Source: a virus
IMG/VR virus record: IMGVR_UViG_3300027659_000191
Coordinates: 1-25,200 of that record
Reading direction: 5' to 3' (one strand)
DNA length: 25,200 bases
Shown here piece after piece: positions 14,107 through 18,359 of the stretch (position 1 is the first letter of the stretch; every line of letters begins with the position of its first letter). The translations under genes and the position numbers were made by a program. The notes beneath the pieces are model-generated. The model was not told the DNA's origin, did no database searches, and saw nothing but the letters and a program-made list of their open reading frames with translations.

Positions 14107-14316
14107 ATGATTGAAGAATTTGTACCTGATAAATTGCATACTATAAGAATGAATATCTGTAATACTTGCGAGAAATTAACTAGTATTAAATTTTGTTCTT
14201 CTTGTGGGTGTTTTATGCCTGTAAAAAGTAGAATTAAAACTACTTCCTGTCCTTTGGGTAAATGGACTAAGTTTATAGAAAGCAATAACAATGTGGATCC
14301 TAAACTGGTTACCTGA
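14107..14316 (+). CDS. small Cys-rich, zinc-ribbon-like protein
   Basis: 69 residues with Cys at 18, 21, 30, 33, 35 and 48 in the order CNTC, CSSCGC, CPLGKW. Two CxxC pairs suggest a bound zinc. Short proteins ending in a CPLGKW-type motif are common in aquatic phages, often near the lysis genes; their function is unknown. There is no clear ribosome site before 14107; an internal ATG at 14149 (MNICNTCEKL) is possible but would leave only four residues before the first Cys. The 3' end overlaps the inner spanin gene by 26 bases. Confidence 0.6.
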   Translation: MIEEFVPDKLHTIRMNICNTCEKLTSIKFCSSCGCFMPVKSRIKTTSCPLGKWTKFIESNNNVDPKLVT

Positions 14317-14698
14317 CTGGCTTTTCTATTCGATGTTTTTCGCAGGAGTTTTAGCTTTAGTAATTGGTAAGATGCTTGCCACCGCACGGTTATACGCCTA
14401 CCCCGCCGGCGTTGCGCTAATAATTCTGGGTACATGGTACTCAGGCGGTATTGCTAAAGATCATGAATGGAAAGCTCGAGTAGCAGAAGTAGAAGCTAAA
14501 TTAGTGCTTGCCCAACAAGCAAGTGCCCAAGTAAACGAAAAGATAATTACTAAGGTAATTACCAAGAATCAGATAATTAAACTACGTGGGGATGACGTAG
14601 TAAAGTATATCGATAAAGAAGTCGTCAAATATGATAATACTTGTAAGATCCCCCTCGAAGTAATTACTGTACATAACATGGCTGCTAAACATGATTAA
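14291..14698 (+). CDS. inner-membrane spanin (Rz-like)
   Basis: 135 residues. Hydrophobic segments at about 9-27 and 37-50 are followed by a charged helical region (about 58-115, KARVAEVEAKLVLAQQ) predicted to extend into the periplasm as a coiled coil. A short end holds one Cys and LEVITVHNMAAK. Inner spanins usually have one N-terminal membrane helix, so the second segment is a small oddity. It would pair with the lipoprotein encoded next, joining inner and outer membranes in the last step of Gram-negative lysis. The genes overlap by eight bases. Annotation rests on topology and on the adjacent outer spanin, not on strong sequence identity. Confidence 0.75.
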   Translation: MWILNWLPDWLFYSMFFAGVLALVIGKMLATARLYAYPAGVALIILGTWYSGGIAKDHEWKARVAEVEAKLVLAQQASAQVNEKIITKVITKNQIIKLRGDDVVKYIDKEVVKYDNTCKIPLEVITVHNMAAKHD

Positions 14699-14945
14699 GT
14701 ATATCGCTATCTTATTATTAGCTGGATGCGCTACGGCAGTACCTGTAAAGCAGGTATTTCCTAGCGTACCCCAAGAACTGTTAAAGCCATGTCCCGCCCT
14801 AACTATTATAGAAACTCAGGAGATTAAATTAAGCGAGTTATTGAATATTGTTAGCGCAAATTATACCAAGTACTATCAGTGTTCTAATGTATTAGAAGCA
14901 TGGACAACTTGGTATAAAGAAAATAAGAAAATAAGCGAGGAATAG
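14691..14945 (+). CDS. outer-membrane lipoprotein spanin (Rz1-like)
   Basis: 84 residues. A short signal peptide MIKYIAILLLAGC carries a lipobox LAGC with the lipidated Cys at 13. Residues 14-84 form the periplasmic part, with PCPAL near 33-37 and a Trp/Lys-rich end (AWTTWYKENKK). The order inner spanin then lipoprotein, with overlap, is typical of two-component spanins, although here the two genes merely overlap and are not nested. It ends one base before the endolysin start. Confidence 0.8.
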   Translation: MIKYIAILLLAGCATAVPVKQVFPSVPQELLKPCPALTIIETQEIKLSELLNIVSANYTKYYQCSNVLEAWTTWYKENKKISEE

Positions 14946-14946
14946 T

Positions 14947-15564
14947 ATGTTTGATTTCACTCAAGATCATCTATCTCAATTACTACCAAGTAATCCCTAT
15001 ATTGAATACTGGCACTCTGCTTTAATGCAATGCTTGCCAGACTATGAGATTGATACTCCGCAGAGAGTAGCAGCCTTTATCGCTCAATGTTCGCATGAAA
15101 GTGGCGGATTTAAAGCCCTAAAGGAGAATCTTAATTACCGTGCTGAAACTCTATTAAAAGTATTCCCCAAGTACTTTTCTACTTTAGCTATTGCACAGCA
15201 GTACGCTCATAAGCAAGAAGCAATTGCTAATAAAGTATATGCTAATCGTATGGGCAATGGCCCTGAAGCTAGCGGAGATGGATTTAGTTATTGTGGACGT
15301 GGACTTATTCAATTAACTGGTAAGAGTAACTATACAGCATTCGCGGCTAGTATTGAAACTCCAGTAGAAGAAATACCTGAATTCTTAGGTACATTTGAAG
15401 GTGCTGTACAAAGTGCATGTTGGTTTTGGGAATCTAATAACTTAAATCAATACGCAGATGTAGGCGATATCTTAACTATGACCAAACGTATCAATGGGGG
15501 AACAATTGGATTAGAGGATCGTAAAAAACATTATCAACATGCACTGCATGTATTTGGGATATAA
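14947..15564 (+). CDS. GH19-type endolysin (peptidoglycan muramidase/chitinase-like)
   Basis: 205 residues with GAGGAA upstream of the ATG. The GH19 signature is clear: FIAQCSHESGGF with the catalytic Glu at 51, a second acidic residue nearby (E60 or E67), NGDG-type loop GEASGDG-like (GPEASGDGFSY, 106-115), GRGLIQLTGKSNY (117-129) and TKRINGG (179-185). This single-domain form, with no signal peptide or wall-binding repeat, cuts the glycan strands of peptidoglycan and needs the holin for access to the periplasm. The spanin genes precede it, the reverse of the lambda order. Confidence 0.9.
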   Translation: MFDFTQDHLSQLLPSNPYIEYWHSALMQCLPDYEIDTPQRVAAFIAQCSHESGGFKALKENLNYRAETLLKVFPKYFSTLAIAQQYAHKQEAIANKVYANRMGNGPEASGDGFSYCGRGLIQLTGKSNYTAFAASIETPVEEIPEFLGTFEGAVQSACWFWESNNLNQYADVGDILTMTKRINGGTIGLEDRKKHYQHALHVFGI

Positions 15565-15565
15565 T

Positions 15566-16093
15566 ATGGAAAAACCACTTTCTAGATCAGAACGCGAAGC
15601 ACACATTAAAGACAAAGCCGGTTGGATTATCACTGTTCTTGCTGCTCTGTTGGCCATTACTATGCTTATTGGTGGGAGTAATAGTAGCAAAATTCTTAAT
15701 AACACCCTAGCTATTAATGATACTTGGGGATTTTATCAAGCTAAATCAATTAAGCAAACTATAAATGAAGTAGCAGGAGTACAAGCCGCTAACGGAGGTA
15801 ATTTAGCTTTAGCTGAGAAATACGCAGCGAAAGCTTTATCGTACGAAAGTGAACCTAAAACTGGAGAAGGTAAAGTAGAATTAGCAATTAAAGCACGCGC
15901 ACTGGAAGCAGAACGCAGCATCGCTAAGTCTAAAAGTCCTTACTATACTTATGCTGGTAGCTTATTCCAGATCGCAATCGTACTACTAACCGCAAGTATT
16001 TTAGCTGTTAGTATGTCACTATTCTGGGGTAGTTTAGCTGTCGGTAGTTTAGGAGGCCTTATGCTAGTACAGGCAGTTTGGTTGCTGGTATGA
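15566..16093 (+). CDS. DUF4337 family membrane protein in the lysis cassette
   Basis: 175 residues from the ATG at 15566, one base after the endolysin stop; an in-frame ATG at 15539 lies inside the endolysin and is unlikely. Membrane segments are at about 18-36, 130-148 and 152-174. The family signature NDTWGFYQAKSIK (51-63) and a charged, Ala/Glu-rich helix (80-125) lie between them. DUF4337 proteins are known mainly from bacterial chromosomes and have no established function. Placement between endolysin and holin suggests a role in timing or membrane disruption, for example as a holin partner; that is inference. The end overlaps the holin start by four bases (ATGA). Confidence 0.75.
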   Translation: MEKPLSRSEREAHIKDKAGWIITVLAALLAITMLIGGSNSSKILNNTLAINDTWGFYQAKSIKQTINEVAGVQAANGGNLALAEKYAAKALSYESEPKTGEGKVELAIKARALEAERSIAKSKSPYYTYAGSLFQIAIVLLTASILAVSMSLFWGSLAVGSLGGLMLVQAVWLLV

Positions 16094-16479
16094 AGAAAGA
16101 AGATTGGTTACAGAATAGATGGAGACCAGCTATTGCATGGCTCTACATGGCAGTATGTGCTTTTGACTTCATTATAGGACCTATCTTCTTTACTATCGTA
16201 CAATTCTGGGAAACCTCAGTGGCTAACGATGCTTTTAGACAGTGGGCTCCAATGACTCTACAAGGTGGTGGTTTATTCCACATATCTATGTGTGCAGTAT
16301 TAGGAGTTTCAGCTCATGGGCGCACGCAAGAAAAATTAGCAGTTACTAATGCTGCTCCTACTCCTACCTCCATGGCAGTTCCGACTCCTGTAGTAACTTA
16401 CACAGCAGTAGCAGCACCAATGGTAGCTGTAGTAAACGGTAAACCTGCTCCTCCAAAACAAATTGACCCTATTCTATAA
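16090..16479 (+). CDS. holin, 3TM/gene-transfer-agent holin type
   Basis: 129 residues from the ATG at 16090, which overlaps the previous stop. The N-terminus KKEDWLQNRWRPAIAWLYMA fits the GTA_holin_3TM family (NRWRP.LAW pattern). Hydrophobic segments lie at about 14-38 and 58-76. The tail (about 85-129) is rich in Ala, Pro, Thr and Val and ends PAPPKQIDPIL. It would form the inner-membrane lesion that lets the endolysin out. The family call comes from the N-terminal motif and the neighbours. Confidence 0.75.
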   Translation: MKKEDWLQNRWRPAIAWLYMAVCAFDFIIGPIFFTIVQFWETSVANDAFRQWAPMTLQGGGLFHISMCAVLGVSAHGRTQEKLAVTNAAPTPTSMAVPTPVVTYTAVAAPMVAVVNGKPAPPKQIDPIL

Positions 16480-16487
16480 GGCATTAT

Positions 16488-16649
16488 ATGAAAATCCTAG
16501 CCACATTATTAGTAAGTTTTAGCTTATTAGCTCCTGCTTACGCAGTCGAAAAGAAAACAGCTCCTACTGCAGCTTCTGCACCTAAAAAAGCTAAGCCTGC
16601 AAAGATTCACAAGAAAGTAGAAGGCACAAAAGTGCCAGTCAAGAAGTAA
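16488..16649 (+). CDS. 53-residue secreted Lys/Ala/Pro-rich peptide
   Basis: A short frame with TAAGG before the ATG at 16488. Residues 1-19 (MKILATLLVSFSLLAPAYA) are a textbook signal peptide with an AYA cleavage site. The mature part has about 34 residues and no aromatic residue or Cys: Lys-rich with Ala and Pro (SAPKKAKPAKIHKK), strongly basic. It would be exported to the periplasm, where a cationic peptide could bind peptidoglycan, lipopolysaccharide or DNA. Similar tiny signal-peptide proteins occur in bacteria, and a host origin is possible. Function unknown; the place directly after the holin suggests, but does not prove, a role in lysis. Confidence 0.7.
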   Translation: MKILATLLVSFSLLAPAYAVEKKTAPTAASAPKKAKPAKIHKKVEGTKVPVKK

Positions 16650-17894: not shown

Positions 17895-18359
17895 ATGTTT
17901 CAAACTCAATCGCTTTTTCCCACTACTGGCTTGATGGTTATGCCCGGTTTGACACAGGCACAAGGTTTATTTCCAATACAACCTATTTATGGTTCGGACG
18001 ATGATATTACTGTTAACTTCTGTCCTATTCCGGGCCCACCAGGCCCTCCAGGACCCCCGGGCCCACCCGGCCCGCCAGGTTCCTTATCGGATGTACCCGT
18101 TACACTAATCGATGAACCTACTTATATTCCTAATGCTGATGAGTATTTTCTTGGCTGCATATATAATGGACAAGTAACCATTACTTTGCCGGCAGGTACT
18201 GTAGGCAAAGTTTATGTAATCAAAGATAGCGTTGGCGATGCTGCTAATAATCCTATTACTATAGTAGGATCAATTGATGGAGCCGCTAGCTATGTAATTA
18301 ATATTGACTGGGCTAGTATTACTTTAGTCTTTAACGGTATAGAATGGAATGTAATATGA
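17895..18359 (+). CDS. collagen-like small fibre protein
   Basis: 154 residues. A hydrophobic N-terminal 43 residues contain two LFP segments, then five successive GPP triplets (47-61) and G62. The C-terminal module VTITLPAGTVGKVYVIKDS ... LVFNGIEWNVI recurs in the next genes. GPP triplets would make a short, stiff collagen triple helix, so a trimeric fibre is likely; known phage collagen-like parts behave this way. It is the first gene after the sigma70 promoter. The tract is far richer in G and C than its surroundings. The stop overlaps the next start (ATGA). Confidence 0.8.
   Translation: MFQTQSLFPTTGLMVMPGLTQAQGLFPIQPIYGSDDDITVNFCPIPGPPGPPGPPGPPGPPGSLSDVPVTLIDEPTYIPNADEYFLGCIYNGQVTITLPAGTVGKVYVIKDSVGDAANNPITIVGSIDGAASYVINIDWASITLVFNGIEWNVI

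Follow-up and report, generated by a model that had tools for sequence, protein, structure and literature searches.

The lysis cassettes of phages that infect Gram-negative hosts are usually described as consisting of a holin, an endolysin and spanins. Small phage proteins that are exported or lipid-anchored can act in superinfection exclusion or envelope protection, and we know of no spanins in phage phiKT, which carries the disruptin gp28. Disruptins are described as short amphipathic helical peptides (PMC12819732). The antiholin RI of phage T4 is a secreted protein that binds its holin and whose signal peptide is cleavable (PMC8385771).

Here we describe a gene for a small, putatively exported protein in a virus record of 25,200 bases, the whole of which is called the window. 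Like RI, a periplasmic partner of a holin whose signal peptide is cleavable (PMC8385771), the protein is small and predicted to be exported; RI, in contrast, binds a large periplasmic domain of its holin. Like gp28, it is a small cationic phage peptide with a role in lysis, proposed in this case, but it has spanin-like genes beside it, and no strong amphipathic helix is seen. With o- and u-spanins its family shares the cassette, Cys in most members and, in 7 of 56 distinct members, the prediction of a lipoprotein. The window member, however, has neither Cys nor lipobox, and in eight of the nine loci with the long forms described below, a separate small lipobox protein is seen by eye upstream of the endolysin (L229 offers no upstream view).

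The gene and its cassette

The gene occupies 16488..16649 on the plus strand, from an ATG at 16488 to a TAA at 16647-16649, and its 53 codons plus stop specify MKILATLLVSFSLLAPAYA followed, across the predicted cleavage site, by VEKKTAPTAASAPKKAKPAKIHKKVEGTKVPVKK. It begins 8 nt past the stop codon of the holin gene (16477-16479), which is overlapped by the Shine-Dalgarno-like AAGG read from the sequence at 16478..16481 on the plus strand, 6 nt before the ATG. The first 19 residues, MKILATLLVSFSLLAPAYA (16488..16544, plus strand), look by eye like a cleavable signal peptide, with Ala at -3 and -1 and the cleavage context APAYA/VEKK; in the aligned cleavage-site column of 101 distinct family members, Ala or Ser is found in all (98 and 3, respectively). 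The predicted mature part has 34 residues, among them 11 Lys, 6 Ala and 4 Pro, and a net charge of +9 (by eye, the charge also computed). An earlier note on this DNA had proposed such a frame, with a clean signal peptide cleaved after AYA and a mature part of about 34 residues rich in Lys, Ala and Pro, and these predictions agree with it. In the family alignment, the mature part divides into an Ala/Pro/Lys-rich linker, VEKKTAPTAASAPKKAKPA (16545..16601, plus strand), which replaces the two-Cys loop of most relatives, and a C-terminal module, KIHKKVEGTKVPVKK (16602..16646, plus strand), marked by the conservation of the tail.

The preceding genes lie on the plus strand as well. The i-spanin candidate at 14291..14698 is a weak one (phrog_4952, 'signal peptide motif', E 3.7e-11; phrog_2536, Rz-like spanin, E 0.0033; no Pfam match), and the o-spanin candidate at 14691..14945 is Rz1-like, with a LAGC lipobox by eye (phrog_456, E 2.1e-7; PF23793 LysC at 26.4 bits, just under the cut-off of 27). 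They are followed by a gene for a GH19-type endolysin at 14947..15564 (phrog_181 endolysin, E 5.6e-81; PF00182 at 34.1 bits, cut-off 25.5) and one for a DUF4337 protein at 15566..16093 (PF14235, E 3.9e-26), which overlaps the start of the holin gene and whose product could itself be a holin-like part. The holin gene, directly upstream of the peptide gene at 16090..16479, matches phrog_3427 (holin, E 9.8e-8) and, over part of its length, PF11351 GTA_holin_3TM (26.2 bits, cut-off 24.8). The sequence evidence for calling it a holin is modest; of 15 matches in named phages, 13 are annotated as 'hypothetical' and two as 'structural protein'. A PhoH gene lies downstream of the peptide gene. With spanin-like, endolysin and holin genes upstream and PhoH downstream, the peptide gene thus closes a seemingly complete lysis cassette. 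The earlier note had placed it in the lysis region and in the company of spanins; it does stand directly behind the holin, with homologues in phage lysis cassettes, and the spanins have their candidate counterparts in the Rz1-like gene at 14691 and the weaker Rz-like match at 14291. Near the cassette, at 18030-18080, a 154-residue protein contains a collagen-like Gly-Pro-Pro run.

Conservation of the reading frame

The nearest relative, in locus L001, keeps the frame and is 83% identical to the window protein. Over the 53 codons, 14.5 synonymous and 9.5 non-synonymous changes give a dN/dS of 0.157, which compares with 0.20 for the holin of the same two loci; their PhoH proteins are identical. 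By this measure, the peptide frame is under purifying selection relative to L001. When the window protein is the sole query, it finds L001 and, at 36-47% identity (E 5e-8 to 1e-6), five other loci. An HMM built from 20 members, the window included, yields 157 matches, 101 of them distinct, across 200 loci plus the window, which as a training row itself scores E 6.1e-15. A simple rule, applied without a shuffled control, places a Shine-Dalgarno-like element before 97 of the 101 distinct members (only three bases in 3 of these) and none before 4, so that both the frame and the ribosome site, whose conservation the earlier note had proposed to check, are found to be kept in relatives.

Codon usage in the tail points the same way. 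Among the 101 distinct members, the conserved His is encoded by CAT in 61 and CAC in 40, and the Gly by GGC in 53, GGT in 34, GGA in 10 and GGG in 2; the Glu is mostly GAA (91 of 101). Because synonymous codons vary, conservation appears to act on the protein rather than on the DNA. A frame this short and simple in composition might be spurious or non-functional, but the 101 distinct relatives, the conservation of the tail at the protein level despite synonymous change and the dN/dS of 0.157 make this extremely improbable; together with the relatives found from the window query alone, they lead us to reject a chance frame, and the dN/dS, the relatives and the HMM family support the frame as a gene. 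We consider it very likely that the frame encodes a genuine phage protein that is secreted, one of a large family without a name found at the end of the lysis genes in many environmental phages.

Features of the protein family

The usual member consists of a signal peptide, ETKKVC, a variable Lys/Asp/Gly loop and EVCK-x-[IV]-K-x-HKKLEGT-x-[VI]-P-x-KK. The tail pattern of the family is K-x-[IV]-K-x-H-K-K-L-E-G-T-x-[VI]-P, and the choice of loci by this pattern makes conservation in the 101-member set partly one by construction. The window protein is placed in the family by its sequence match and by its position behind a holin-like gene. A set of 56 distinct members comes from loci chosen by phoH or by the window-type holin, with an HMM built from the 101. 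In window numbering, Lys43 is present in all 56, Glu45 in 54 (Asp in 2) and Pro50 in 53; position 41 is His in 47 and Arg in 9, and position 35 is Cys in 54. Two or three Cys are found in the last 60 residues of 54 of the 56; the window and L001, the only two without any there, keep the tail.

Net charge ranges between +4 and +9 across 100 distinct members, those for which a crude rule gives a cleavage site, and the cationic character that the earlier note had stressed is thus a family trait. Aromatic residues are absent from the last 36 residues in 91 of the 101 distinct members. The best helical moment over 18 residues is 0.29 in the window (mean hydrophobicity -0.22) and 0.27 in the two-Cys member L071, where nine residues with a moment of 0.62 could form an amphipathic strand. 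For L071, with the 101-member alignment as input, AlphaFold predicts strands at 24-32 and 39-47, which contain both Cys, at low confidence (mean pLDDT 60.8). The two-Cys loop of most relatives is probably a disulfide-closed beta-hairpin.

Ten of the 56 distinct members have at least 90 residues: L237 has an extended start, and the other nine have a long Ala/Pro/Lys linker that recalls the short one of the window. A lipobox is found in seven of the 56, all among the nine with the long linker, in the forms LTAC (2), LSAC, LGAC, LNAC and AWAC (2), followed by Ser in five cases and by Asp in both AWAC forms. By the rule for E. coli, Asp at +2 would favour the inner membrane. In one study, AWAC functioned as a lipobox when placed in a u-spanin (PMC6139136). 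The seven long forms suggest that the same C-terminal module comes in predicted soluble and predicted lipid-anchored forms. In L361 and L369, a lipobox-like SAC or AAC is seen by eye where the signal peptide ends, with a short linker after it.

Linkage to holin-like genes

When the type-B holin-like gene of L185 serves as bait, the peptide gene is found downstream in 79 of 80 loci (the best 80 of at least 595), with 55 distinct peptides, mostly 168-312 nt further on, a distance that can accommodate the 72-residue membrane protein seen between the two in many cases. The one locus that departs from this, L371, shows a window-type holin at that place and no visible peptide gene. Type B corresponds to phrog_25359, where function is unassigned, and to no Pfam family, and we call it holin-like from its place and its two-TM look. 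With the window-type holin as bait, the peptide adjoins in 37 of 76 scored loci and does not in 39 (best 80 of 304, with 4 unscored). In 24 of these 39 (L220, L223, L224, L226-L228 and others of L214-L293 are examples of the peptide-less loci), the next frame has 496-812 residues and the C-tail of the holin is unlike the cassette type; the window-type holin domain thus also occurs in a second, perhaps structural, setting.

Among the 70 phoH loci with at least 900 bases upstream, 36 have the peptide together with a holin-like gene and 34 have neither, the holin-like set having itself come from peptide neighbours; 10 loci were left out as short, one of which, L054, has the peptide with no holin-like gene in view. 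Among those listed, many of the phoH loci without peptide (L002-L034) have, in place of the holin-peptide pair, an apparent lysozyme gene right before phoH. The gene calls behind the neighbour clusters are greedy and mechanical. By these calls, the gene after the peptide in the 101 distinct members is phoH in 40, cluster c8 in 40 (mostly before a primase or thyX gene), DnaJ in 11 and another in 10, and the gene before it is HOL1 in 50 or HOL72 in 36. As the next gene varies while a holin-like gene precedes, it is the lysis cassette that stays constant beside the peptide. In 35 of 94 cases, the peptide gene has a gap of -4 to the gene before it. Of the 68 members with at least 4 kb upstream, 67 have a holin-like gene among their upstream neighbours; GH19 is in view in 47, an Rz1-cluster gene in 33, and either that or a small protein with a loose lipobox in 56, counts that the flanks limit.

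Two further small proteins recur in these cassettes. HOL72 (L148:4469-4690 and relatives, 79 in the cluster), of about 72 residues with two hydrophobic stretches, lies between the holin-like gene and the peptide gene; it has no convincing family match in PHROG or Pfam and is perhaps a second holin or an antiholin. Cluster c7 (L101:2950-3231 and relatives, 76 in the cluster), of about 93 residues, Cys-rich and with an N-terminal hydrophobic stretch, lies between the endolysin and the holin-like gene, and the one member scanned has no PHROG or Pfam match. The C-tails of the holin-like proteins share the ending GKxAPxPxPQPE[IL]. We considered this tail as a docking site for the peptide and dropped the idea: in several loci, such as L071, L061 and L069, the Shine-Dalgarno site of the following gene falls within its final codons, and by eye the tail probably lies in the cytoplasm.

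Distribution

Scanned for the tail pattern, viral contigs give at least 600 stretches. A two-Cys query confirms at least 568 of these, and the window protein as query confirms 56 of the same 600; the window member is thus a divergent one within the family. The loci analyzed are the best 80 of 303, of at least 568, of 304 and of at least 595, and therefore lean to near relatives; several share contigs, so the counts are not independent events. In genome contigs, 78 pattern matches contain a single confirmed relative, on a 5.2-kb MAG contig, and we reject a bacterial family on this count.

In named phages, tblastn with three members finds no match (E up to 10, 1 and 1), a search in which the low-complexity filter may hide Lys-rich matches. 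The HMM finds none in four named phage records with similar holin-like genes (E up to 1), while matching the MAG relative again. Pfam returns nothing for the window at E up to 0.1 or for six other members at E up to 1, and PHROGs nothing convincing (best E 0.046 for the window and 0.012 among six other members). NCBIfam gives only weak, scattered matches for 20 members (best E 0.004; mini_HHHH in 4 of 20), and among PDB sequences the profile has a single match at E up to 10, to ribosomal L18 (E 0.87). Searching the open-licence literature by words rather than by sequence, we found no published description of the family. On these sequence searches, it is a large, uncatalogued phage family.

Discussion

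We tentatively favour the reading that the window gene encodes a Sec-exported periplasmic lysis accessory that would bind a component of the envelope. Encoded where the lysis cassette ends, the peptide would be expressed along with the holin-like gene, and its predicted signal peptide would lead to Sec export into the periplasm. There, the Lys-rich C-terminal module may attach to part of the envelope, for which the anionic cell wall or one face of a membrane is the likeliest candidate, and in the bound state could assist endolysin and spanins in breaking the envelope open. The module of most relatives carries the two-Cys loop, closed by a putative disulfide; in some it is predicted to be lipid-anchored through the long Ala/Pro/Lys linker; in the window phage it would be free and Cys-less. 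In each case, the peptide would work outside the inner membrane around the time of lysis. The linkage to holin-like genes, the varying next gene, the net charge of +4 to +9 and the lipoboxes in 7 of 56 members speak for this model. The specificity of the tail counts against it, as it suggests a defined partner rather than a bulk surface, and so do the spanin-like genes already present, the holin annotation, which the window-type gene has but type B and HOL72 lack, the 39 of 76 loci in which the window-type holin lacks the peptide, the Asp at +2 in the two AWAC members and the low confidence of the hairpin model.

The precedent of RI, which is secreted and binds its holin, makes a secreted holin regulator a serious rival: the peptide would bind the holin from outside and set lysis time, perhaps sensing periplasmic DNA through its positive charge. 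The tight linkage to holin-like genes, the frequent 4-base overlap with the upstream gene and the specific conserved tail are what such a regulator would lead one to expect, and the complex of T4 RI with its holin is reported to bind DNA (PMC11413866). However, by eye the holin-like proteins are short, with two TM segments, and show nothing like the large periplasmic domain to which RI binds in T4; the peptide accompanies two types of them, phrog_3427 in the window and phrog_25359 in L185 (single linkage joined both, so they may be distant relatives); and some members are predicted lipoproteins. As to relationship with RI, the peptide falls in no Pfam family, and ribosomal L18 is its one PDB-sequence match. 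We consider a regulator unlikely on balance and rank the envelope accessory above it, on account of the apparent lack of a large periplasmic domain and the two sequence types of the holin-like proteins.

A disruptin-like peptide, permeabilising the outer membrane by itself, would also be cationic, exported as predicted here and encoded in the lysis cassette, and the possible amphipathic strand of the two-Cys members would suit it. Among disruptin features, the window peptide has the charge, at +9, but neither a strong amphipathic helix nor the replacement of spanins, since an Rz1-like gene and a weaker Rz-like match are present; across loci, spanin-like genes are frequent, aromatic residues are scarce in the tail, the helical moments are low, and the tail is conserved in sequence and not in charge alone. 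This makes such a peptide improbable. The earlier note's generic polycation that disturbs the membrane finds no support either: the tail residues are near-invariant beyond what charge would call for, most members have two Cys, aromatics are few, and neither of the two members checked shows a strong amphipathic helix, on which grounds we reject a polycation acting by charge alone. Replacement of spanins is likewise rejected, as spanin-like genes occur in the window and across loci and a separate lipobox protein accompanies the long forms. A periplasmic factor for superinfection exclusion or envelope protection, encoded with the lysis genes by happenstance, would have precedent among small exported or lipid-anchored phage proteins, but the place behind a holin-like gene is kept before three common next genes, and we regard this as slightly more improbable.

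It is doubtful, though conceivable, that these peptides form a further class of lysis proteins, distinct from holins, endolysins, spanins, disruptins and antiholins. Such a protein would be a Lys-rich module, either secreted or tethered by a lipid, in most cases with a disulfide loop and almost always paired with a holin-like gene; it would bind a defined envelope target and be required for efficient lysis despite the spanins. Members of the family are frequent among contigs of environmental phages, and no convincing counterpart came up in the family libraries or the named phage records that we searched. The alternation of soluble and lipid-anchored forms, both predicted, offers a handle on the binding target. 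Behind the type-B holin-like gene, a further gene is present in 79 of the best 80 of at least 595 loci, and the gene is a candidate for an overlooked extra part of the host-bursting machinery. If the peptide is active in lysis, it would be a missing part of the lysis machinery.
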